A DNA stretch of 35,850 nucleotides, taken from positions 1 to 35,850 of IMG/VR virus record IMGVR_UViG_3300011258_001167; one strand, 5' to 3'. Source of the DNA: a virus. Positions 1,267 through 35,530 of this stretch are shown here, in pieces. Each line of letters begins with the position of its first letter. Position 1 is the first letter of the stretch. The notes under the pieces were generated by a model that was not told the DNA's origin, did not search any database, and saw nothing but the letters and a program-made list of their open reading frames with translations. Position numbers and translations under genes: made by a program.

Positions 1267-1503
1267 ATGAATAACAGAGATCAAGAACTACACGCACAGG
1301 CCATAAAAACACTTTATGCGGGCCTCGAACAGATCGAGAAGGAAACACCCGACTCGTTCCCATATATAGAAGAGATAGAGGACATCCTATATCGCCTCGA
1401 TGATTTGCAAGGCGCTGTATTGGCCTTTGACCTTTCCGAACATTTAATAAACCAAAGAGACGCTGCGATTGAGGCGCACGCAGACCAGAGGGCAGAAAGA
1501 TGA
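1267..1503 (+). CDS. Hypothetical 78-aa protein, first gene of left operon
   Basis: A 78-aa acidic, helical protein with no recognised domain. GAAAGGGGAA lies just upstream of the ATG. It is the first gene after the operator-controlled promoter at 1204-1232, so it should be among the earliest products on induction. Lambda-type phages often place host-takeover or anti-host-defence proteins here, but nothing in the sequence shows a specific function. Its stop overlaps the next start (ATGA). Confidence 0.75.
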   Translation: MNNRDQELHAQAIKTLYAGLEQIEKETPDSFPYIEEIEDILYRLDDLQGAVLAFDLSEHLINQRDAAIEAHADQRAER

Positions 1504-1763
1504 TTAAAGACGAAAACTTAACAATACCTGTTATGGCACTGCCAGCAAACCAGAATGTCCATGTTGAGCCGGTAAGACCGCTTCCAACCTATTCAGCACG
1601 TGAGTTTGATGCACAAAAGCAGATAGCAATCCTGACAAACGCCCTTGAGGTCATACACCGCAGAGCGAAGGAAACTTACAAGATGCGCCCTTACCACGAT
1701 GAAGAAATTTCATTCATGGGAATGGTTGCCGAAAACGCCCTTATTAACGCAGGAGAGATGTAA
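1500..1763 (+). CDS. Hypothetical 87-aa protein
   Basis: An 87-aa protein with a Pro-rich N-terminal third and a helical C-terminal half. The core at about 36-58 reads like a short coiled coil, and the end resembles the small phage proteins that finish with a conserved helix around MVAENAL. It overlaps its upstream neighbour by ATGA and shares one base with the next gene. No function is recognised. Confidence 0.75.
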   Translation: MIKDENLTIPVMALPANQNVHVEPVRPLPTYSAREFDAQKQIAILTNALEVIHRRAKETYKMRPYHDEEISFMGMVAENALINAGEM

Positions 1764-2080
1764 TGGATATGAACCAAGCGCCAGCAACATTATTCGAAGC
1801 CAGCCGTATATACGAGGCTGGGCGCATAGACCAACTACATGCGGATATTAACCACCTTGAGAGGTTAGACGCTAGAGAGCCGCGCCCCCGTAGAAAAACA
1901 AGCATTCACGACCTTCGCAAGAAAACAGTTATTCGCGATTTAAAGGGCGTGTCCCCTCTTCCTACGAAGGAAGTCCCCGAAACTATTGGCTTTGGCACTT
2001 TCGTGCTTTCCATGATTACTGTCATTGCCACTTTTTTCTCAAGCATTGGCCTCTATGCCGTGATTGCGGGGTTGATATGA
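1763..2080 (+). CDS. Hypothetical 105-aa protein with C-terminal transmembrane segment
   Basis: The N-terminal about 75 residues are charged with a basic stretch (REPRPRRKTS near 40-49). A single hydrophobic segment follows at about 78-104. The topology is a cytoplasmic basic domain with a C-terminal membrane anchor. No family is recognised. It is translationally coupled on both sides (TAATG with the upstream gene, ATGA with the downstream gene). Confidence 0.7.
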   Translation: MDMNQAPATLFEASRIYEAGRIDQLHADINHLERLDAREPRPRRKTSIHDLRKKTVIRDLKGVSPLPTKEVPETIGFGTFVLSMITVIATFFSSIGLYAVIAGLI

Positions 2081-2220
2081 AAACATTCAAAGAATTACTG
2101 AGTATGCTGCGTAGCAAGCTCCGGCGGTTTCCCCGTTCAACTGTACCGCCGGAGCAAGCGCAGGATAATGAAGAAGATTGGGAGGAATACGGGCTTTGGT
2201 GCGAAGGGAAATTAAAATGA
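2077..2220 (+). CDS. 47-aa hypothetical protein bridging two coupled genes
   Basis: An ORF of 47 codons with a basic N-terminal half (LRSKLRRFPR) and an acidic C-terminal half (NEEDWEEYG). Its ATG overlaps the stop of the previous gene, and its TGA overlaps the ATG of the annealing-protein gene at 2217, so it fills the gap exactly. That overlap pattern is the main evidence that it is real. It also fixes the start of the next gene at 2217. Confidence 0.7.
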   Translation: MKTFKELLSMLRSKLRRFPRSTVPPEQAQDNEEDWEEYGLWCEGKLK

Positions 2221-2852
2221 AACTACAAGCTGCAATGGATGAAATAGCTGGCATTAACCAAGCCGGGAAAACTGGAACTACCAAGGTTCAAGGCGGAAAG
2301 ATTTACACGAATGTATCTGCCCGCGTTGAAGTTTTAAGAAAGCATTTAGGGCTTGAGTGCGGCATAGAGACAGCCCCCCTATTCCCGGCTAATGGCGGCA
2401 TATTTATGCAAGCATGGGTAAAAGACAAAAGCGGATTTATTCTAGGTACAGGTCACGCTTATGCGACTAGCGTATCCAAAGAAAAAGGTATTGAAAAGCT
2501 TGAAACTACCGCCGTAGGACGCGCCCTAGCCTCTCTTGGTCTTGCTGGTGGGGAATATGCCTCTGATGTTGAAATGAATACTTGGCAAGAGCGGTACGAA
2601 GAACCCAGCACAGGCATCCATATTGAAATAAGCGCGGATGATGTGGCGCCAGAGGATTGGCTTGCGTCTAAAATTTCACTCATTGAAGAGTACGCTACTA
2701 AGCCCCGCTCTACGCCGGAGGGCGTGGGGAAGGCATATGATAAAGCCATCCATGATCCTATTTGGGCAAAACTCACGCCAGAGCAATGCGCCGAATACGA
2801 AGAGACAATCAAACAAATTAAATTCCAACTCAAACAGAAAGAAACAGCATGA
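2217..2852 (+). CDS. Single-strand annealing recombinase-like protein (ERF/Rad52-type)
   Basis: A 211-aa protein. Residues about 25-110 carry the pattern seen in ERF/Rad52-like phage annealing proteins: a strand-rich stretch with an aliphatic GHA motif (about 77-79), then an E-T-TAVGRALASLGLAG segment (about 95-110), which is the most recognisable signature. The C-terminal half is a variable, charged, helical tail. The start was moved to the internal ATG at 2217 because it overlaps the previous stop (ATGA) and has AAGGGAA upstream. It is followed directly by an SSB-like gene, the usual partner. It probably anneals single strands for phage recombination, genome circularisation and repair. Confidence 0.75.
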   Translation: MKLQAAMDEIAGINQAGKTGTTKVQGGKIYTNVSARVEVLRKHLGLECGIETAPLFPANGGIFMQAWVKDKSGFILGTGHAYATSVSKEKGIEKLETTAVGRALASLGLAGGEYASDVEMNTWQERYEEPSTGIHIEISADDVAPEDWLASKISLIEEYATKPRSTPEGVGKAYDKAIHDPIWAKLTPEQCAEYEETIKQIKFQLKQKETA

Positions 2853-3088
2853 GCAAAATGAAATTCAAATACGAAGCCGTTCACACGGAAAAATACACTG
2901 ATAAAGCAACAGGTGAGGAGCGCAAGAAATACACCAAGATAGGCGCGGTCTTTGAAAGAGAAGACGGAACACTGTGCATGAAGCTTCTCGATAGTTGGGT
3001 TAATTTCTATCCGCCCAAGATCAAAGAAGACGGCTATCAAGCTGCAAAGCAAGCCGTAGATAATACATCCGACGACATACCTTTTTAA
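2849..3088 (+). CDS. SSB-like single-stranded DNA-binding protein
   Basis: A 79-aa protein, far shorter than bacterial SSB (about 170 aa). It ends in the acidic tip DDIPF, which in SSB proteins docks partner enzymes. The N-terminal part is strand-rich with Lys and Tyr (KYTKIGAVFE, LLDSWVNFYPP), consistent with a minimal OB-like fold. It overlaps the annealing-protein gene by ATGA. I infer it coats single-stranded DNA for that protein. The tail motif is seen directly; the fold is inferred. Confidence 0.7.
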   Translation: MSKMKFKYEAVHTEKYTDKATGEERKKYTKIGAVFEREDGTLCMKLLDSWVNFYPPKIKEDGYQAAKQAVDNTSDDIPF

Positions 3089-3108
3089 CCCCAAAGAAAG
3101 AGAGAAAA

Positions 3109-3564
3109 ATGACCGACTACACACAAACCAAAACCTATCGTAGCCATGTAAAAAGAGCGCAAAAGCTGGACTTTCCAGAAGGTGCAATTGCCAATAAATC
3201 ATGGTTTCAAAAAAAATACTCTGATGAAAAAAGGTGTATTTATTCCCAAGCGACCTGCTCGGATGCCTACAAAGGCATGAGTGTCGCCTTTAAAGCCGGT
3301 AACAGTGTTTTCTTTAAGGTAAGCAAGTACAATACATACCGTAAAAACGTGGATAATTTGATTGAGAAATCCCTAGCCAAAAAGCCCATCAAGGATACGC
3401 CAGCACCAAGAGAGGATAGCCGGATTGACCGCCTAGAAGGGGCGCTGAATAGCCTTCGCATGGAAATGACTATATTGCGGGAACGCTTGGAGAATATTGA
3501 ACCCAATATACGCGCTCCTCAAGAGCCTGTAAGACGTGAAGCAGCCAAGAGATCATTTTTCTAA
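3109..3564 (+). CDS. Hypothetical 151-aa protein with C-terminal coiled coil
   Basis: The N-terminal about 85 residues are basic and aromatic with two Cys (RCIYSQATC). A coiled coil follows at about 102-131 (RIDRLEGALNSL, then MEMTILRERLENIE), and then a Pro/Arg-rich tail. GAAAGAGAG precedes the ATG. The stop shares its last base with the next start. No family is recognised. The position between SSB and a nuclease suggests a recombination accessory role, which is inference. Confidence 0.7.
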   Translation: MTDYTQTKTYRSHVKRAQKLDFPEGAIANKSWFQKKYSDEKRCIYSQATCSDAYKGMSVAFKAGNSVFFKVSKYNTYRKNVDNLIEKSLAKKPIKDTPAPREDSRIDRLEGALNSLRMEMTILRERLENIEPNIRAPQEPVRREAAKRSFF

Positions 3565-3911
3565 TGCTTAAGAAACCTAAACCATCAACCGCAGAGCTTC
3601 GGAGACATGCCACCATGATACGCAGTATCGGTATGTGTGTAGCCGAGCTTATGCGGCCTGAGCCTTGCGGGGGAGAATTACAAAGCTGCCACGTAAGAAT
3701 AGGAGGCGGCGCGGGTATAGCTCAAAAACCACCAAAGAGAGAGGTTCCTATGTGCGCTTTACACCATAGCATACAGCACAAAGTAGGAGAAAAAACATTT
3801 TGGGGTGAGCGATTAAATGAAGTCATAACGCTTGCCTGTGTATTGGGGGTTATGACAGACGATTTAGAACAGGCGCAATTCGAATGTATGGAGTTTAGAT
3901 ATGGGTATTGA
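3564..3911 (+). CDS. HNH-like (Ref/DUF968-type) nuclease
   Basis: A 115-aa protein with a zinc/His-Me finger pattern: Cys35, Cys42-His43, then a Gly-rich loop and KPPKREVP, then Cys64, His67-His68 and His72. Order and spacing fit the phage proteins with CHxR...G-KP...PLCxxHHxxQH, known as DUF968/Ref-like, where the His pair is catalytic. FW at 79-80, after the finger, is also typical. Ref-type enzymes are recombination-linked nucleases, which matches the neighbours. It overlaps the next gene by 11 bp. Confidence 0.65.
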   Translation: MLKKPKPSTAELRRHATMIRSIGMCVAELMRPEPCGGELQSCHVRIGGGAGIAQKPPKREVPMCALHHSIQHKVGEKTFWGERLNEVITLACVLGVMTDDLEQAQFECMEFRYGY

Positions 3912-4335
3912 GGCAGAGATAGCAAAGAGAACCGCCGTGCATTTTGAAGCAAAAAAAGACGCGCTCAAACAGGTTCAAAGCGGCGATGTAAAGGTGACGT
4001 TTACAATTAACCCGGAGGAAATGCCATCGAGCTTGTATTCAGACGCTATGGGTCAAAGATATATGATTGCGGTTGTCGCTTTAAACGATGATGAAACACC
4101 CAAAGAGAGGCCCAAAGAAAAGCCCAAAAGCTTCGCCGGGCAAGCCAAGATGCTGGCGGCGGACGAAAGTTTTCACCAATACGTTGCCCGCGTTATCGGG
4201 GGCGATATAAACCCCGAAACCTATATCAAGGATGTATGCGGCATTCAAAGCTGCGCCGAGCTTATAGAAGGCACTGAGGCCGCAAAAAAGCTTAAGGGGA
4301 TTCAGGCCAATTTCTTGCAGTGGAAGGATTTTTAA
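3901..4335 (+). CDS. Conserved phage hypothetical protein (144 aa)
   Basis: The N-terminal about 60 residues form a compact domain beginning EAEIAKRTAVHFEAKKDAL and containing GQRYMIAVVAL. A Lys/Pro/Glu-rich linker (about 65-78) follows, then a C-terminal domain with the motif YIKDVCGIQSCAEL (about 108-121). I recall this two-part arrangement from hypothetical genes in alphaproteobacterial prophage recombination modules, but know no function for it. It overlaps the nuclease gene by 11 bp. Confidence 0.7.
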   Translation: MGIEAEIAKRTAVHFEAKKDALKQVQSGDVKVTFTINPEEMPSSLYSDAMGQRYMIAVVALNDDETPKERPKEKPKSFAGQAKMLAADESFHQYVARVIGGDINPETYIKDVCGIQSCAELIEGTEAAKKLKGIQANFLQWKDF

Positions 4336-4337
4336 CC

Positions 4338-4550
4338 ATGGAATACCTGCCCCTGCTATCAGCCATATTTATTACATGGTGCGCCTTTATGGGTGTTTGG
4401 TCAGAGTACACGGCTGCAAAGCTATATGATGTCTTAGAAAAAGCCATAAAGAACAATTTTGATTTGGCGGATCGAAATATACAGCTTTCAAACAAGATCC
4501 ATAAATTAACCCGAAAGAGAGACGCTAAGGGGCGCTTTGTAAAGAAATGA
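4338..4550 (+). CDS. Small membrane-anchored protein (70 aa)
   Basis: A hydrophobic segment at about residues 4-22 is followed by a charged helical, probably coiled-coil tail ending in basic residues. The ATG at 4338 was chosen over an in-frame ATG at 4320: 4338 has GGAAGGA 9 bases upstream, and 4320 lies inside the preceding gene and just before that Shine-Dalgarno sequence. The ATGA overlap with the next gene supports translation. It could form an Rz-like or regulatory membrane protein; the function is unknown. Confidence 0.6.
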   Translation: MEYLPLLSAIFITWCAFMGVWSEYTAAKLYDVLEKAIKNNFDLADRNIQLSNKIHKLTRKRDAKGRFVKK

Positions 4551-4738
4551 AAACTCTTGTCTTCATATCCGGCTTTGCTGCCTGCGCCTTTCTAAACGCG
4601 CTTATGCCTGAAGCTGCGGCAGAGATAGAGCGCGATACGGTGTTCGTGCATACGGAGCAAGTAATTGAGATTTGCTCGGCTGATGATGTGGGATTGGTGA
4701 GATTAACCGTTGAGGATATTAAGGAGTTAGTGAAATGA
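4547..4738 (+). CDS. Small secreted or periplasmic protein (63 aa)
   Basis: The N-terminus has a basic start, a hydrophobic core and an Ala-rich end at about residue 25 (PEAAAE), which looks like a cleavable signal peptide. The mature part would be about 38 acidic residues with one Cys. No family is recognised. It is coupled by ATGA to both neighbours. Confidence 0.6.
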   Translation: MKTLVFISGFAACAFLNALMPEAAAEIERDTVFVHTEQVIEICSADDVGLVRLTVEDIKELVK

Positions 4739-5013
4739 GTGATAAACCCTACTCAGTAAAGACTTTAGCCGAAAGATGGGATTGTTCTAAGCAGAAGATT
4801 CACAACATGATAAAGGCGAAAGAGATTAAAAACACGTTCCCGGTGGGAAATATGCTTAGAATTCCGGTATGGGAAATTGAAAGGATCGAGTCATGTGGAA
4901 TAGAACACCAGAACTCTACAGAGGAAAATACTACGCCAGAAGCGGCACGGGGCAGAAAACTAGGAGAAAATCACTTGGAACGTCAACCTTGGAGTTGGCA
5001 CGGCAGCGCCTAG
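4735..5013 (+). CDS. Excisionase-like helix-turn-helix protein
   Basis: A 92-aa protein. Residues about 6-50 form a MerR/excisionase-type winged HTH: YSVKTLAERWDCSKQKIHNMI, then a turn and IPVWEIERIE. The remaining about 40 residues are low in structure and are encoded out of frame with the integrase start, which lies inside this gene (121-bp overlap). Xis genes commonly precede and overlap int. Xis would bend attachment-site DNA and steer the integrase toward excision. It could also be a regulator of int; position favours Xis. Confidence 0.75.
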   Translation: MSDKPYSVKTLAERWDCSKQKIHNMIKAKEIKNTFPVGNMLRIPVWEIERIESCGIEHQNSTEENTTPEAARGRKLGENHLERQPWSWHGSA

Positions 5014-5876
5014 AAGATTTAATCTTATTTGATGATTCAAACCCGATTTTAATTAAGGATATGTGGGCGGAATACGCCAAAGAGAAGGAAAATAAATATC
5101 GAGATTTAATGTATATGTGGCGCTCATTAGAGCCAACATTCGGGCATTTGCGCCCAGACCAAGTAACGCGGCAGAAATGCAAAGAATTTAGTAAAGAGAA
5201 AAACATGAAGGCAGGAACAATCATAAGACAGCTAGGAGCGCTCAGGGCAGCCCTTAAATGGAATGACCCTAACACCCCCGCTATATTCTGGTTTCCCCCT
5301 TCTCCGCCCCCCAGAGATCGTTATTTAACACGATTAGAGGTGCAGGAATTGCTTGAGGTGTGCGAGCAGCCCCATATCAGGTTATTTATTACTCTCGCTA
5401 TTTGTACGGCAGCGCGTAAATCCGCCCTGCTAGAGCTTACATGGGATAATGTGGACTTTGAGAGAGGGCAGATTAATCTCGGTATTGGTGCATCAAATAA
5501 AAACCGCGCAATCGTGCCTATGAACTCAACAGCGGAAAGAGCCTTGGAAGAGGCTTATAGCTACCGCCTTACTGACAATGTAATCGAGTATAACGGACGC
5601 GCCATTAAAGATGTGAAGCGGGGTTTTGCGAGATGTGTAAAGGCGGCTGGTCTTACGGGCGATATAAGCCCTCACACCCTTCGTCATACCTCGGCAGTGT
5701 GGATGGCAGAGGATAGAGTGCCAATGTCTGAGATTGCTCAATATTTAGGCCATACAAATACTCGCGTTACGGAAAGAACATACGCCCGTTATTCACCTGA
5801 TTTTCTTAAAGGCGCAGCTAATTCTTTGGAATTGGGTTCAATTGCACCCAAAAATGAGGGTCTTATAAAATGCTAA
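4893..5876 (+). CDS. int: Tyrosine recombinase (phage integrase)
   Basis: A 327-aa integrase. The N-terminal about 45 residues form an arm-binding-type domain (YYARSGTG...RRKSLGTS). A SAM-like core-binding domain covers about 50-125 and the catalytic domain about 143-310. Catalytic residues are visible: Arg175 (TAARKS), Lys203, the box HTLRH at 261-265, His287 in LGH, and the nucleophile Tyr297 in the TERTYARY segment. The start at 4893 gives the expected N-terminal domain. The gene ends 24 bp before the tRNA-Asp attachment core, the normal int-attP arrangement. Confidence 0.95.
   Translation: MWNRTPELYRGKYYARSGTGQKTRRKSLGTSTLELARQRLEDLILFDDSNPILIKDMWAEYAKEKENKYRDLMYMWRSLEPTFGHLRPDQVTRQKCKEFSKEKNMKAGTIIRQLGALRAALKWNDPNTPAIFWFPPSPPPRDRYLTRLEVQELLEVCEQPHIRLFITLAICTAARKSALLELTWDNVDFERGQINLGIGASNKNRAIVPMNSTAERALEEAYSYRLTDNVIEYNGRAIKDVKRGFARCVKAAGLTGDISPHTLRHTSAVWMAEDRVPMSEIAQYLGHTNTRVTERTYARYSPDFLKGAANSLELGSIAPKNEGLIKC
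5832..5849 (+). repeat. 18-bp direct repeat flanking attP core (first copy; second at 6039-6056)
   Basis: TTGGGTTCAATTGCACCC occurs at 5832-5849, within the 3' end of int, and identically at 6039-6056. The two copies lie on opposite sides of the attP core at 5901-5945. The inner 16 bases are also an imperfect palindrome. Placement either side of the core is what arm-type integrase or Xis binding sites look like. The element also resembles a tRNA T-arm. Confidence 0.6.
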
Positions 5877-5900
5877 TTCTTCTGAAAGCCTTACCCCAAA

Positions 5901-5945
5901 TGGCGCGAGTGACGAGACTTGAACTCGCGGCCTCCGCCGTGACAG
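5901..5945 (-). other. attP core: 3' part of a tRNA-Asp(GUC) gene
   Basis: Read on the minus strand, these 45 bases match a tRNA from the anticodon loop to CCA: loop CTGTCAC (anticodon GTC), 3' anticodon-stem strand GGCGG, variable AGGCC, T-stem GCGAG, loop TTCAAGT, T-stem CTCGT, acceptor CACTCGC, discriminator G, CCA. Beyond 5945 the match stops: the 5' anticodon strand CCGCC is absent. A partial tRNA right after int is the classic attP core, and insertion would restore the host tRNA-Asp 3' end. The variable and T-arm resemble alphaproteobacterial tRNA-Asp. Confidence 0.85.
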
Positions 5946-6038
5946 AACACGGGCCTGATGCCAATGTGTTGATGTTTAATAACTTTTTAAAAAGCAGTCG
6001 TCAATATTTATATAAACGAATCGGGAACGTCAATCATT

Positions 6039-6068
6039 TTGGGTTCAATTGCACCCGCGGCCTCCGCC
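6039..6068. repeat. Second 18-bp repeat plus partial second copy of the attP core
   Basis: 6039-6056 is the second copy of the 18-bp repeat. It runs directly into CGCGGCCTCCGCC (6056-6068), which is identical to 5926-5938 inside the tRNA-Asp core; allowing two mismatches the match is 20 bases (6049-6068 with 5919-5938). The stretch from 5877 to 6102 otherwise contains no gene. 5968-6020 is AT-rich. Confidence 0.6.
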
Positions 6069-6102
6069 TAAATCCATGTATTACGAAAAGGAGTAATCAC
6101 GC

Positions 6103-6258
6103 ATGACATATATATACGAATCAGCCGCCCGGCTGCGAACAGAAGCAAACAAACTAGAGCAAGCAGCGGAGGCTTTACGAGAAGAAGCGGCTCGGCTGGT
6201 TACGGAGAATCTGAGTTTAGAAACCACTAAAAACTTAACCAAAGGAGAAAAAACATGA
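6103..6258 (+). CDS. 51-aa helical protein, first gene of accessory block
   Basis: ATG at 6103, TGA at 6256-6258, with AAAAGGAG 9 bases upstream. The product is almost entirely one amphipathic, heptad-patterned helix rich in Ala, Glu, Arg and Leu, so it probably forms a coiled coil. Its stop overlaps the start of the next gene (ATGA), which makes it a coupled partner of the 111-aa protein. No function is recognised. Confidence 0.65.
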   Translation: MTYIYESAARLRTEANKLEQAAEALREEAARLVTENLSLETTKNLTKGEKT

Positions 6259-6590
6259 GTTGTACTGACAATTTAACACTAAAGGAAATAAAGGAGTTGA
6301 TGGGAATATTCGGCTCTGGCGGCTCTGCCCACCAACCGTTCAAAATTGGCAAAGCCTACCTTATCCGCACCGTCACGCATATCGATATTGGTATTGTCAA
6401 AGAGGTTGGCGATAAGGAGCTTGTGTTAAGCGATTGTAGCTGGATAGCTGATACGGGTCGCTATCACGATGCGCTTAAAACGGGGAGGCTAAACGAAGTT
6501 GAGCCATATATCAGTGACGTTATCCTAGGGCGGGGAGCAATCATAGACGCGACAGAGTGGGAAAACGACTTACCAAGGAGCCAAATATAA
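6255..6590 (+). CDS. Conserved 111-aa protein of a metagenomic phage family
   Basis: A compact strand-rich protein: KIGKAYLIRTVTHIDIGIVKE at about 31-51, then LVLSDCSWIADTGRYHDAL at about 56-74, then EVEPYISDVILGRGAIIDATEWENDLP to the end. I recall this pattern (IRTVT...G-V...L.LSDASWIADTGR...EVEP...A-ID-TEW...LP) from a widespread uncharacterised gut-phage family, possibly Pfam DUF6948; I could not check that. I also recall it next to genes for short repetitive Gly- or Ser-rich peptides, as found here. The stop and the next ATG overlap (TAATG). The function is unknown. Confidence 0.75.
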   Translation: MSCTDNLTLKEIKELMGIFGSGGSAHQPFKIGKAYLIRTVTHIDIGIVKEVGDKELVLSDCSWIADTGRYHDALKTGRLNEVEPYISDVILGRGAIIDATEWENDLPRSQI

Positions 6591-6730
6591 TGAATGCCGC
6601 TGTGCTGAGAGAGGGTTTAAACAGGTCGGGGTTGTGGTCGAGGTCGTGGTCGTGGTCGGGGTCGTGGTCGTGGTCGTGGTCGGGGTCGAGGTCGAGGTCG
6701 GGGTCGAGGCCGAGGTTGAGGTTGAATTAA
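6590..6730 (+). CDS. Ser-X dipeptide-repeat small protein (Trp/Gly/Arg)
   Basis: A 46-aa ORF with AAGGAG 10 bases upstream and a TAATG overlap with the conserved partner gene. After about 12 ordinary residues it becomes an alternation of Ser with Trp, Gly or Arg (about residues 17-39), ending PRLRLN. At DNA level every Ser is TCG and every partner codon is NGG, with only the first base changing (TGG, GGG, AGG). The region is thus a degenerate 6-bp tandem repeat. It is likely disordered, with alternating aromatic and basic side chains. The function is unknown. Confidence 0.6.
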   Translation: MNAAVLREGLNRSGLWSRSWSWSGSWSWSWSGSRSRSGSRPRLRLN

Positions 6731-6731
6731 C

Positions 6732-6832
6732 AGTTATGGGGGCTGCGGTTCAATACGATAGAGCGTAACAGAAAACTGAGCGCCGTTGATATTACCTAGT
6801 GGGTTAACCCCACCAGCCCCCACCCGTTAACT
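6732..6832 (+). ncRNA. Predicted structured RNA 1 (three-way junction)
   Basis: Perfectly paired closing stem TGGGGGCTG (6737-6745) with CAGCCCCCA (6814-6822), extended by AGTTA (6732-6736) with TAACT (6828-6832). Inside are two hairpins. The first has GGT (6747-6749) with ACC (6794-6796), AATA (6752-6755) with TATT (6790-6793), GCG/CGC (6763-6765/6781-6783) and CAG-AAAA-CTG at the tip. The second is GTGGG (6799-6803) with CCCAC (6809-6813). The second hairpin abuts the closing stem. There is no convincing ORF. The orientation is assumed from the flanking operon. I know no matching RNA family. Confidence 0.5.
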
Positions 6833-6848
6833 AAAGGAGAATTTATTA

Positions 6849-6953
6849 GACGCGAGATGCTTATGGTGATCTAGGACGGTCAAGACGAATACGAGAGCCT
6901 AGCATAAGTTCGTTAATGGTTGGTGGAGATAACTAAAACCCCGCCCTCGCGTC
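6849..6953 (+). ncRNA. Predicted structured RNA 2 (long closed stem with inner bulged hairpin)
   Basis: The closing stem is GACGCGAG (6849-6856) with CTCGCGTC (6946-6953), 8 of 8 paired. Inside, CTTATG (6860-6865) pairs with CATAAG (6903-6908). After a 5-base bulge (GTGAT), CTAGG (6871-6875) pairs with CCTAG (6898-6902), leaving a 22-base loop. The 3' part can form GTTA/TAAC (6912-6915/6930-6933). The element lies 16 bases after structure 1 and ends 32 bases before the next gene, so the two fill the 255-bp gap 6731-6985. An orphan Shine-Dalgarno (AAAGGAG, 6833-6839) lies between them. Confidence 0.45.
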
Positions 6954-6985
6954 CAATAAGTGCTTTTAACCAAAGGATGAATTTG

Positions 6986-7420
6986 ATGAACATTAAAGAA
7001 CTCGAAGAGGCGCTAAGAAATATTGGGGACATGTGCTGTGTCTATACGGAGGATTTGCACGGCAGTAAATGGGAAGGGTCTTCTTCTGAGAAATATTTCA
7101 ACTGTATAGAACAAATCGCCAAAGAATACGCCCAAATCCTGCCACTGCTTGAGAAGATGCGGGAGGCTCGGAAGAAGGCTACGGCTGGGGAGTGGAGAGC
7201 TTGCTACGAAACCCCTACATCACACGGTCAAATAGCAATAACCAGTGCTGAGAGTGATTTAAACGTGGCTGGCGTCCCTCTTGGCCTTGCGGATCGGGAT
7301 AGTTGGGATGGATGTATTCTAATTCAGAAAGAAAACAAAGAGAGTGTAGCTATCTCTGACTTCATCACAACCGCAGCCAACAACATAAGCGCTATTGATA
7401 AGCTTTTTGGGGGTGAGTGA
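6986..7420 (+). CDS. Ea22-like accessory protein
   Basis: A 144-aa protein with two short motifs typical of lambda Ea22-type accessory proteins: ATAGEW at 65-70 (usually ATPGPW/GEW) and a DFITTAANN helix at about 125-133. The N-terminal half is helical. The ATG at 6986 was chosen because AAAGGA lies 8 bases upstream; the longer frame from a TTG at 6920 would start inside the predicted RNA structure. The function of the Ea22 family is unknown. Its 3' end shares a 23-bp repeat with the gene at 7649. Confidence 0.65.
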   Translation: MNIKELEEALRNIGDMCCVYTEDLHGSKWEGSSSEKYFNCIEQIAKEYAQILPLLEKMREARKKATAGEWRACYETPTSHGQIAITSAESDLNVAGVPLGLADRDSWDGCILIQKENKESVAISDFITTAANNISAIDKLFGGE

Positions 7421-7422
7421 TG
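7400..7422 (+). repeat. 23-bp direct repeat at gene junctions (second copy 7910-7932)
   Basis: An identical 23-bp segment, beginning AAGCTTTTTGGGGG and ending in the ATG of the following gene, occurs at 7400-7422 and 7910-7932, 510 bp apart. Each copy holds the last codons of one gene (KLFGGE), a G-rich Shine-Dalgarno and the next start codon. The intervening 7423-7909 encodes two genes. The identity at DNA level, beyond what the amino acids require, suggests recombination at the boundary. Confidence 0.8.
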
Positions 7423-7659
7423 GAAGAGCAAGAGGCAATAAGCATATGTGAAAATTGGTTTTCTTATCTTAAACAACAAGAGCAGGACACTATTACCCTT
7501 CAAAGGGCGGCGGCTTTAGCCCGTAAGGGTGACAGAGAAGGTGCGAACCGCTTAAAATCATCCGTTGATAACCAGCCAAGGATTTATGATGGGGCTACGT
7601 TATTACCGGCTGTTCAATTTTTAGTAAAACAGGCAAAGGACAACGAAGATGAGCAATAA
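7420..7659 (+). CDS. Hypothetical 79-aa protein
   Basis: A helical, mildly acidic protein with one Cys and Trp near the N-terminus (ICENWFSYL) and an AALARKGDREGANRLKS helix in the middle. ATG at 7420 overlaps the preceding stop (TGATG); the G-rich Shine-Dalgarno is part of the 23-bp repeat. An in-frame GTG three bases earlier is less likely. It overlaps the next gene by 11 bp. No family is recognised. Confidence 0.65.
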   Translation: MEEQEAISICENWFSYLKQQEQDTITLQRAAALARKGDREGANRLKSSVDNQPRIYDGATLLPAVQFLVKQAKDNEDEQ

Positions 7660-7930
7660 AACACCAGCGCAAGTGGCTTTGGGTGAACTTTATATGTTTG
7701 CTTTGGCCGGGGGATCATTCGCGCAATCGGAGAACACCAGAGAACTAAAAGAAACAATCAGCAAAGCCCTAGAAGACCAAGTCGAGAAAGATCGAGTGTT
7801 TGAGCTAATGGCGGAGGCTTTAGATAAGCTGGCTAGGTTGGGCAACGCGCCTATGATGGGTAATTCCAACGCTAATGTTGTCGCACAGGAAGCTCTTGCG
7901 GAATACCAAAAGCTTTTTGGGGGTGAGTGA
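7649..7930 (+). CDS. Hypothetical 93-aa protein
   Basis: A helical protein of 93 aa with charged segments (ENTRELKETISKALEDQVEKDRVFELM) and an Asn/Met-rich turn near 66-76. It ends YQKLFGGE, the same terminal KLFGGE as the Ea22-like protein at 6986-7420, encoded by the 23-bp direct repeat. The shared end may reflect recombination rather than homology of the whole protein. Confidence 0.65.
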   Translation: MSNKTPAQVALGELYMFALAGGSFAQSENTRELKETISKALEDQVEKDRVFELMAEALDKLARLGNAPMMGNSNANVVAQEALAEYQKLFGGE

Positions 7931-8241
7931 TGCAAAACCAGTTAAACACAACCTTTATTGGTGAACTCTTGAAAAACAGAAGAAAGCTTTTGGGGTTTTC
8001 TTTGGAGCAATTAGCAAAGCATATAGATAGTTCAAAATCGTATGTGTGGGAGCTTGAGAATAGCAAAATTGAGCCTAGCGGTCGCAAGGTCTTTTTGCTC
8101 TCTATGGCTTTGGGTGTGCCTATGGAGTTCTTTTACGGACAAAACAAAGGTGCTGATGTTTACGCAGCATATATAGGGAAAAAAGTAATAGCCTTAATGA
8201 AAGAAGAAACCCCAGATAAGGAGACAAAAGTTGAACAATAA
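7930..8241 (+). CDS. XRE-family helix-turn-helix regulator (accessory)
   Basis: A 103-aa protein with an XRE/Cro-C1 HTH at about residues 10-65: IGELLKNRRKLLGFSLEQLAKHIDSSKSYVWELENSKIEPS, then LLSMALGVPMEFFYG. This resembles host-type XRE proteins (long first helix, four-residue turn, then the LxxALxVPxxxF end) more than the phage repressor at 35540. The start ATG at 7930 lies within the 23-bp repeat. It may regulate the accessory operon or a host target. No operator for it is visible. Confidence 0.8.
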   Translation: MQNQLNTTFIGELLKNRRKLLGFSLEQLAKHIDSSKSYVWELENSKIEPSGRKVFLLSMALGVPMEFFYGQNKGADVYAAYIGKKVIALMKEETPDKETKVEQ

Positions 8242-8797
8242 AAACCCAATCAAAGCCCTAGAGGAGCTTGTCGGAGAGGCGGTAGCATTTGTTGATATGC
8301 AATACAGCCCTGACGAGCCGAGATATGCGGACAAGAGAAGCCAAGAGCTTTCGGATATCGCGGAGCTTGAGGCGGTTATATTAGGGGGGTTGCAAGATCA
8401 GATTGTAGATGTCGAGAGTTTAAAGAAAGAGATAGATCAGGAGATGTGGCGTGAGTGGGGTGAGCGCAAAGGAAACGGAGAAAAACATACTGAATTAGAC
8501 GGATGTAATACCAAATTAATAGCGAGAATAATAGACCACCTCCACGCCAAAGGCCACATACGCCCCCCAGAGCCAAGCGGCTGGCAACCGATTGAAACTG
8601 CGCCGAAGGATGGGACGAACGTTCTTTTATTAGATGTTCACGGCAATTATCGTATAGGTGGCTATCAATTAAACTATCAAAACAGAAAATGGGGAACTGG
8701 ATGGGAAGGGTGCGACTGGGATTTTAAGATAGATTTTGATCCACAACCAACACACTGGATGCCTTTACCGCCCCCACCAACCGAGGAGACTGAATGA
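8231..8797 (+). CDS. DUF551-containing hypothetical protein (TTG start)
   Basis: A 188-aa protein. The C-terminal about 70 residues begin with GWQPIETAPKDGT (117-129) and end with THWMPLPPPP, the hallmark of DUF551, a small phage and prophage domain of unknown function. The N-terminal about 110 residues are helical and acidic. I chose TTG at 8231 because AAGGAG lies 7 bases upstream and no better ATG is near. It overlaps the HTH gene by 11 bp. Confidence 0.75.
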   Translation: MNNKNPIKALEELVGEAVAFVDMQYSPDEPRYADKRSQELSDIAELEAVILGGLQDQIVDVESLKKEIDQEMWREWGERKGNGEKHTELDGCNTKLIARIIDHLHAKGHIRPPEPSGWQPIETAPKDGTNVLLLDVHGNYRIGGYQLNYQNRKWGTGWEGCDWDFKIDFDPQPTHWMPLPPPPTEETE

Positions 8798-8949
8798 TGA
8801 GTGAACAACTCAACAGAAATGCAATAGGCTGGCTTATAGAGGCTATCAAAGATCAATCTGATGATTACGATCTTGACACGTCTGATATGGAGGTGCGGCT
8901 AATGAAAATTAGAAGCTACATCCACGCGATAGAAAGGCTAGAAGGATGA
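8797..8949 (+). CDS. 50-aa hypothetical protein
   Basis: An acidic helical protein (LNRNAIGWLIEAIKDQ, then a DDYDLDTSD acidic loop, then a helix ending AIERLEG). There are tandem ATGs at 8794 and 8797; GAGGAGA upstream suits 8797 best (8-base spacing), with the stop of the previous gene at 8795-8797. Its own stop overlaps the next ATG (ATGA at 8946-8949), supporting it as a real gene. Confidence 0.6.
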   Translation: MSEQLNRNAIGWLIEAIKDQSDDYDLDTSDMEVRLMKIRSYIHAIERLEG

Positions 8950-9197
8950 CTGATATGCCACTGAATATATGGGCTTGGATATACAAAACAAACACTCCTT
9001 GGTGTGAAAAACAACCAAGCCCAACTCTTGCACCTATACAGGCCAAATACACCAACACCGCCAAGCTTCGCAAGAGGATTGAGGGGTTAAAAAAAGAAGA
9101 CGGTTTCCACATTCCCGGTTGCGCGATTGAGGTTGGATACAAGAACGAGGGGTTCAACGCAGCAATAGACAAGATATTGGAGATGATTGATGAGTGA
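8946..9197 (+). CDS. Hypothetical 83-aa protein ending in a GFNAAID-type helix
   Basis: The N-terminus is aromatic (LNIWAWIYKTNTPWC), the middle is a basic helix, and the end reads EGFNAAIDKILEMIDE. The terminal G(F/W)NAAID(K/E)IL motif recurs at the end of the neighbouring Lar-like protein (GWNAAIDEIL) and is common in small phage accessory proteins. No function is known to me. Confidence 0.65.
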   Translation: MTDMPLNIWAWIYKTNTPWCEKQPSPTLAPIQAKYTNTAKLRKRIEGLKKEDGFHIPGCAIEVGYKNEGFNAAIDKILEMIDE

Positions 9198-9768
9198 AGA
9201 ATTAAAGCCCTGCCCGTTTTGTGGCTCAGATAATATAGACCCTGAGGGTGTAGCTTCGTTTAAACCAGAATACCGAACCAGTGATATGAACTGGGAAGAG
9301 GACGCCAGTAAGGGCACGATTCAACACAGACCAGCTTGCGCAGATTGCGGGGCAACAACAGAAGAAAACTGGAACACCCGCGCCGACCAAGAGCAGATAG
9401 AGGGGCTGGGGGAGGCTTTGGGTGAACTTGATATGGTGATAAAATCTGCTTTTGCAGACTTACACGCCATCAAAAAAGTAGAAGATATGATGGAGAATAG
9501 CGGTTTAGATAAAGGAAGTTTGCCTTTAGCCCATAGAATTAAGGCAGAAGCACAGCAAAAACAATTAGAGAGAATAAAACCAGCTCTCGAAGCAGCAAAA
9601 CGATACCACAAAATGACGAAAGGCCACCTCACCCGCACCCCTCTGCCAGTCACCCGCGAGAGGCTTGAGGGGATGAAGGTATTGGAAAATACGCAGCCAT
9701 ACGATAGCGATGACTGGTATATCTACGGCTGGAACGCTGCGATAGATGAGATATTGGGGAATAAGTGA
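9190..9768 (+). CDS. Lar-like zinc-ribbon protein with long C-terminal extension
   Basis: A 192-aa protein. The N-terminal 65 residues form the Lar-type zinc ribbon: CPFC (Cys8, Cys11), then CADCG (Cys50, Cys53), followed by W-N-T-R. In Lar-like proteins this fold is linked to restriction alleviation. The family is usually about 60-100 aa; here a further about 125 residues follow, with coiled coil at about 70-130 and a C-terminal GWNAAIDEIL helix. ATG at 9190 overlaps the previous stop region; a TTG three bases upstream is less likely. Anti-restriction is inference from the family. Confidence 0.7.
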   Translation: MSEELKPCPFCGSDNIDPEGVASFKPEYRTSDMNWEEDASKGTIQHRPACADCGATTEENWNTRADQEQIEGLGEALGELDMVIKSAFADLHAIKKVEDMMENSGLDKGSLPLAHRIKAEAQQKQLERIKPALEAAKRYHKMTKGHLTRTPLPVTRERLEGMKVLENTQPYDSDDWYIYGWNAAIDEILGNK

Positions 9769-10004
9769 GCAAAGAGCCAGAAGATATTACTTGGCCCGGT
9801 ATGTTAAGATATCTACCTCAATCTTGCGCGAAGATGTTTGTTGATTTAATAGAAAAAGAACACGACCCTGCTATGATGAACGCAATTGTAAAAGAGATCG
9901 GGCAGAGGCAAAAGAAATTCGCTGTCGAAGATTGGGGGCATTACATGCGTTGGATTGCCAAACTACAAGGCTTTCCCGACCCCTATAATAAGGATTGGCG
10001 TTAG
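9765..10004 (+). CDS. Hypothetical 79-aa protein (GTG start), last + gene
   Basis: Begins with GTG overlapping the preceding stop (GTGA), with TTGGGGA upstream. It is compact, with Trp-rich ends (ITWPGML, EDWGHYMRWIAKL) and a helical centre. No family is recognised. It ends 24 bp before the stop of the convergent adhesin gene. I see no clear terminator in that gap (10005-10028). Confidence 0.65.
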   Translation: MSKEPEDITWPGMLRYLPQSCAKMFVDLIEKEHDPAMMNAIVKEIGQRQKKFAVEDWGHYMRWIAKLQGFPDPYNKDWR

Positions 10005-33422: not shown

Positions 33423-34033
33423 TGAACATCACTCCCCCCGCTATCGACCCAACCAGAATTAAAACCCTGCCATCCCCGTTGACACATTTCCTGAAGCGCC
33501 CGCTCCAATGACCAATTTATTTTTTTTGCCTCACGTTCAATTCCATCGATTGCCGTTTTTGTGATTGGTGCTTTTTTTCTTTTTCGGAGAAGAACAAAAT
33601 CCTCCCAGATTTCATCCGAAATTTTTTCGGGTCTATATTCTTTCTTTCTTTCTTTCTTCCCTTCTTTAGATGTGGTTACTTGTTGGTTACTTGTTGGTTG
33701 TTTGTTGGTTACTTGTTGGTTATCGTCCTGATATTTTTTCCAGTTAGTCACTGATATTATTGAGAATTTATTGGTTGTTTTGATGGTTATTTTTTGGCCT
33801 TTTTCTAATTTTTTTAGGCAAGTTCTGACCTGTTGCTCGCTAAGTCCCAGTGAGCGCGACATTTCAAATCGCCCTGAAACGAGCGATCCGGGGGGTATTT
33901 TATGCCCCTGATAGCTCCCATTTTTGTAATTTGCCTTCAATAAAAGATAGAGAAATAAGGACACCATATTGGGCTGATCTCTCCATTCCCAATTTTCAAA
34001 TTCCCGGTATATTTTTATAAAACCCCGATCCAT
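33410..34033 (-). CDS. Replication initiator / helicase-loader-type protein (O-like)
   Basis: A 207-aa protein. The N-terminal winged HTH (about 1-95) reads FIKIYREFENWEWRDQP, then LFLYLLLKANYKNGSYQG, PPGSLVSGR and LGLSEQQVRTCLKKLE...ITIKTTNKFSIISV. This is the pattern of phage replisome organisers. A low-complexity linker (about 104-133) is encoded by 11-bp DNA iterons, followed by a helical C-terminal domain (about 140-195) ending GWQGFNSGWV, a loader-type end. It lies directly before the primase and helicase genes. Confidence 0.8.
   Translation of the reverse strand: MDRGFIKIYREFENWEWRDQPNMVSLFLYLLLKANYKNGSYQGHKIPPGSLVSGRFEMSRSLGLSEQQVRTCLKKLEKGQKITIKTTNKFSIISVTNWKKYQDDNQQVTNKQPTSNQQVTTSKEGKKERKKEYRPEKISDEIWEDFVLLRKRKKAPITKTAIDGIEREAKKINWSLERALQEMCQRGWQGFNSGWVDSGGSDVQCYI
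33674..33724. repeat. 11-bp iterons inside the initiator gene: predicted replication origin
   Basis: GGTTACTTGTT is repeated head to tail at 33674, 33685, 33696 (as GGTTGTTTGTT) and 33707, with a partial fifth copy at 33718 (GGTTATC). The 11-bp period is one DNA turn and not a multiple of three, so the repeats fall in different reading frames and are conserved as DNA, not as protein. Beside them is a T/C-rich run (33641-33668) of low stability. Lambda has its origin iterons in the same place, inside gene O. Confidence 0.75.
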
Positions 34034-35451: not shown

Positions 35452-35530
35452 ATAATTTACCATTTTGGTGAATTAGTCAATAACTTTATTCACCATCTTG
35501 GTTCTTTTTTTAATTTACCATTTTGGGGAA
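35452..35530. promoter_or_regulatory. Tripartite operator (OR-like) and lytic promoter (PR-like)
   Basis: Three 17-bp operator copies: TTTACCATTTTGGTGAA (35456-35472), TTCACCATCTTGGTTCT (35489-35505) and TTTACCATTTTGGGGAA (35514-35530), with centres 33 and 25 bp apart. On the minus strand TTGACT (35480-35475), a 17-bp spacer and AATTAT (35457-35452) form the promoter of the cro-like gene, with the first operator filling its spacer. The third operator overlaps the repressor's Shine-Dalgarno (GGGGAAGG), which would allow autoregulation. The repressor's own promoter is not clear. Confidence 0.8.

Follow-up and report, generated by a model that had tools for sequence, protein, structure and literature searches.

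What is the 255-nt gap that follows the Ser-X gene in the genome of an uncultured phage, and do its predicted folds have a function? The window, the whole stretch of 35,850 nt analysed here (IMG/VR record IMGVR_UViG_3300011258_001167), is an apparently complete phage genome with a 21-nt direct repeat at both ends. It encodes a P22-type portal, a terminase, head proteins, an integrase and a replicative helicase. The source phage is uncultured and temperate. Just 3' of the integrase, the reverse strand of 5893-5950 resembles, by eye, the 3' part of a tRNA ending in CCA (possibly tRNA-Asp), and this resemblance makes the stretch a probable attP. A tandem 11-bp repeat, TGGTTACTTGT, occupies 33673-33727 with about five units.

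The gap (6731-6985) separates the end of Ser-X (6730) from the start of P0002 (6986), an orphan gene whose WXG100 match in Pfam was sub-threshold (Table 1). It lies inside a run of plus-strand genes (1267-10004), with repressor-type operators upstream of the run. Four 17-bp operator-like palindromes (TTYACCATTTTGGTGAA) form two clusters: two of them lie at 1179-1228, where the rightward genes begin, and the others at 35456-35530, intergenic between divergent ORFs. These sites probably serve immunity control. The same-strand gene run and the operator-like palindromes together indicate that the gap is probably transcribed within a repressor-controlled early operon. A sigma-70-like promoter or an intrinsic terminator was detected neither in the gap nor adjoining it, and the search for a G+C-rich hairpin followed by a T run was negative throughout 5800-7600.

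Table 1. Positions of the genes, gene-start leaders and predicted stems in and around the gap.
Feature	Position	Strand	Description
P0001	6255-6590	+	Conserved partner of Ser-X
Ser-X ORF	6590-6730	+	(TCGNGG)n array; stops immediately 5' of S1; second gene of a widespread conserved cassette
S1	6732-6832	+	Three-way junction, MFE fold
S1 P1	6737-6745/6814-6822		9 bp; outer 5 bp at 6732-6736/6828-6832
S1 P2	6747-6796		
S1 P3	6799-6813		GTGGG-TTAAC-CCCAC
Orphan leader	6827-6839	+	TTAACTAAAGGAG; Shine-Dalgarno AAAGGAG; no ATG/GTG/TTG at the usual distance; +20 is TAG
S2	6836-6971	+	Also a three-way junction, MFE fold
S2 P1	6849-6856/6946-6953		8 bp
S2 P2	6859-6909		11 bp, bulged
S2 P3	6922-6926/6941-6945		
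Leader and Shine-Dalgarno of P0002	6966-6985	+	From sequence and leader-copy search
P0002	6986-7420	+	Orphan gene downstream of the gap

A sequence-only reading of the window had described two adjacent closed, multi-stem structures in the gap, and folding reproduced them. The two closing stems are present, and both closed structures occur in the MFE fold of 6732-6953. S1 is the described three-way junction with an extra 5 bp and two nested hairpins. S2 has the described 8-bp closing stem and bulged 11-bp inner hairpin and additionally a third stem (P3), so that it is a three-way junction as well. In the fold of the whole gap, the S2 closing stem lengthens outwards to 13 pairs out of 14, with a single mismatch (6843-6856/6946-6959), and pairing beyond these positions is weak; the 14-nt arms that bound S2 are TTATTAGACGCGAG and CTCGCGTCCAATAA. 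Together, S1 and S2 tile 6732-6971, from the Ser-X stop codon to the Shine-Dalgarno of P0002. The closed folds have about 100 nt (S1) and 136 nt (S2) and contain no ORF, and the statement that no convincing ORF fills the gap directly after Ser-X was also borne out. The reverse strand of the gap folds about as well as the plus strand; given this near-equal folding, action as a plus-strand RNA is not even indicated by the data. S1 and S2 were considered as duplicates of one structure and rejected as such, their alignment score being matched by about 5-10% of shuffles.

The closures had been called unlikely by chance. This did not hold: such inverted repeats are rarer here than in shuffled genomes, and shuffles contain comparable folds. 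For perfect arms with a span of at most 125, the genome has 33 inverted repeats of at least 8 bp (52 +/- 7 in shuffled genomes) and 6 of at least 9 bp (13 +/- 3). S1 has the best folding z among these inverted repeats (-4.1 at 6737-6822), and shuffled genomes hold about 1.3 as good. Within its natural boundaries (6731-6826), unit 1 reached a z of -3.8, and 0 of 1000 shuffles were as good; for unit 2 (6840-6965), z was -2.1 on the plus strand and -3.3 on the minus strand. A 14-nt arm pair like that of S2, with at most one mismatch, was observed once in the genome, with 0.7 expected. The whole gap has a z of about -3 (2/400 shuffles) and ranks 6th of 357 genome windows, its own duplicate entry left out; stronger structure was seen in windows near 35.4 kb and 17.7 kb. 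The gap is moderately structured and not exceptional. Closing stems of 8-9 bp spotted by eye in a 36-kb window are to be expected by chance and call for caution.

The view that the structures match no known terminator, tRNA or riboswitch was supported: an Rfam 15 search of the window gave no match above the gathering threshold to any RNA family, and neither a tRNA nor a terminator was found in the gap. On 6500-7100, Rfam returned two chance-level matches only, SAH with 15.2 bits (threshold 37) and mir-9412 with 16.2 bits (threshold 70). A tRNA relic was also considered and discarded: ARAGORN and Rfam were negative for the gap, and relaxed ARAGORN settings yielded only low-scoring predictions that were unassignable.

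A homologue of the gap was found neither by blastn in 50,697 phage records or PLSDB nor by exact-pattern scans of IMG/VR. Searches anchored on four proteins (P0002, P0001, integrase and portal) were equally negative for the gap, and relatives of P0002 were absent from phages and from IMG/VR and GTDB contigs; the IMG/VR and GTDB scans require short exact peptide matches, which distant relatives could escape. Blastn over about 100 loci sharing P0001 and 17 whole records gave no homologue, and single-sequence covariance models of S1 and S2 recovered only the window's own copy from 594 kb of P0001 loci. A Ser-X ORF follows P0001 in 84 of the 104 fetched loci with a P0001 match, and the sequence 3' of Ser-X differs between them and is unrelated. 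As no homologue was found, there is no sign of selection on the gap. By these comparisons, it appears to be lineage-specific.

One part of the gap has relatives within the genome. The 12-mer TTAACYAAAGGA occurs in three exact copies, of which one precedes P0001, one lies between S1 and S2 and one precedes P0002. With one mismatch allowed, 5 were found against 0.37 expected. The copies before P0001 and P0002 have an ATG at exactly +20 (6255 and 6986). Since the middle copy has no start codon, S2 may stand where a small gene began, and some of the spacer is probably a relic of that gene. A leader peptide from the orphan Shine-Dalgarno was unconvincing as a candidate: the possible starts were limited to an AUU at 6845, which opens a frame of 9 codons, and an ATG at a distance of 18 nt.

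Hairpins behind Ser-X were also surveyed in other phages that have P0001 and Ser-X. In an initial test, the first 80 nt after Ser-X contained a hairpin in 20/67 loci, compared with 4-10 at other offsets. Against other gene ends with a similar gap, the numbers were 13/47 after Ser-X and 47/304 in the controls (p = 0.06, three related loci included). The enrichment is weak, and a link to Ser-X is not claimed. An RNA conserved after Ser-X across phages was rejected as an explanation because the downstream sequences are unrelated. The related loci L066, L068 and L078 have a closed structure between Ser-X and the next gene, with z from -5.5 to -7.0. In this element (3565-3665 in L066), a 17-bp inner stem, ATCGGGATTTTGTTTTC/GAAAACAAAATCCCGAT, is enclosed by an outer stem; Rfam gave no match for it.

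Tentatively, with a probability of about 0.42, the gap can be read as a folded spacer of the early operon that is untranslated, specific to its lineage and at most of general effect in cis. The rightward early transcript would carry it midway, flanked by Ser-X and the orphan P0002. The mRNA would fold into two adjacent three-way junctions that reach from the Ser-X stop to the Shine-Dalgarno of P0002. Its most likely role would be that of intercistronic structure in general, which might hold ribosomes finishing Ser-X away from the next start site and might set mRNA processing or stability between both cistrons. S2 would be built around the third local gene-start leader, which has lost its start codon. 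The reading draws on the z of the gap and on unit 1, which beats 1000 of 1000 shuffles. The tiling by S1 and S2, the plus-strand gene run below the operators and the three leader copies argue in the same direction, as does the absence from the gap of a convincing ORF, a terminator, a promoter and any known RNA family. Against it stand equal folds in shuffled genomes, several windows with more structure and the folding of both strands, with S2 folding better on the minus strand. The gap also has no homologue, and hairpins after Ser-X elsewhere are only slightly commoner than after control genes.

Close behind the folded spacer, and with nearly the same claim to be correct, is the explanation that the gap has no function. 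It would be a decayed small gene or a neutral spacer, and its pairing would be ordinary for 255 nt of such composition. The folds would have been chosen in hindsight from 36 kb of sequence. Similar inverted repeats are no more numerous than chance predicts, or fewer, and shuffled genomes contain equally strong folds. An orphan Shine-Dalgarno that lacks its start codon hints at a gene since lost, and conservation of the gap was found nowhere. On the other side, one small non-coding gap contains both the genome's strongest closed fold and its sole 14-nt near-perfect inverted repeat, and the z of the whole gap is about -3.

It is improbable that the gap gives rise to one or two independent small RNAs, for example a prophage immunity RNA or a host-targeting RNA. 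The compact closed folds of S1 and S2 and their lack of an ORF would suit such RNAs, but the gap has no sigma-70-like promoter or intrinsic terminator in it or next to it, Rfam gave no match and neither strand is favoured. The last point would rather suit inverted repeats acting at the DNA level, as protein-binding sites, as a cruciform or as terminal repeats of a small inserted element, and so would the 14-nt arms that bound S2. This explanation is slightly less probable still. The search for a MITE-like element found no second copy of the S2 arms in the window and no arm pair in that arrangement in IMG/VR; a target-site duplication was not seen either, and the repressor-type sites are located elsewhere.

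The upstream neighbours of the gap, P0001 and Ser-X, constitute a widespread two-gene phage cassette matched to no described family. Relatives of P0001 were present in 299 IMG/VR stretches and 11 GTDB contigs. Pfam gave no match for the 11 members scanned, and PHROG matches were marginal and confined to a few other members. Ser-X consists of hexamers in an array, each a serine codon followed by NGG. Over 85 distinct arrays, the serine codons were TCG, AGC, TCT, TCA or AGT; the codon is largely uniform per locus, with two codon boxes between loci and several loci confined to a single box. Among the second codons, 1730/1943 were NGG; N is hypervariable and takes any of the four bases, so that these codons specify W, R or G. 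The serine codons of other loci (AGC, TCT, TCA or AGT) spoke against the (RG) frame as the main frame of the array, and it was rejected as such. In L018 (MW202573, 5284-5738), the +1 frame of the array starts at an ATG, encodes (RG)n and continues in frame into a protein annotated as a zinc finger; in this locus, one array may carry two overlapping frames. Directly 5' of the array in the window, the heptamer T TTA AAC (6616-6622) has both the sequence and the phase of a classic -1 slippery site; it was not seen in the other loci viewed.

The contig pairs L065/L069 and L093/L097 have identical 330 nt upstream and different Ser-X arrays, of 42 versus 82 aa, with a common first part followed by divergence. 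Unless assembly error is to blame, different arrays behind identical upstream DNA suggest that the array is rapidly rewritten. That S1 and S2 are a folding element of this hypervariable gene, an RNA hairpin or DNA cruciform in the putative rewriting, is very unlikely and is suggested by analogy with the hairpin of diversity-generating retroelements (DGRs). The gap alone, a folded and unconserved spacer in one uncultured phage, matters little. The cassette of P0001 and Ser-X is the notable result, far more interesting than the gap, and deserves its own study.

In DGRs, a hairpin is located downstream of the variable repeat, and the gap resembles them by its hairpin directly 3' of a hypervariable gene. 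In contrast to DGRs, no template repeat was identified; the sequence-only reading had noted no reverse transcriptase and hence neither a retron nor a usual DGR, in agreement with the subset of window ORFs scanned against PHROGs and Pfam, which included none. The variation in Ser-X also differs, falling on a single base in each hexamer of the tandem array. A second comparison is the put RNA antiterminator of the temperate phage HK022, a structured part of its early transcript (PMC9378689). The gap would likewise be a folded portion of an early transcript made by a temperate phage. In general, put sites are short, comprise two stem-loops near the early promoters and act on the transcribing polymerase. 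The folds of the gap, in contrast, form three-way junctions and lie about 5.5 kb 3' of the operators, a position that argues against a put RNA. The last comparison is with the intercistronic mRNA structures of phage operons that act as processing or stability elements. Like them, the gap would be folded, untranslated and placed between two genes of one probable transcript; as a difference, its fold is a predicted one and no homologue of it was found.
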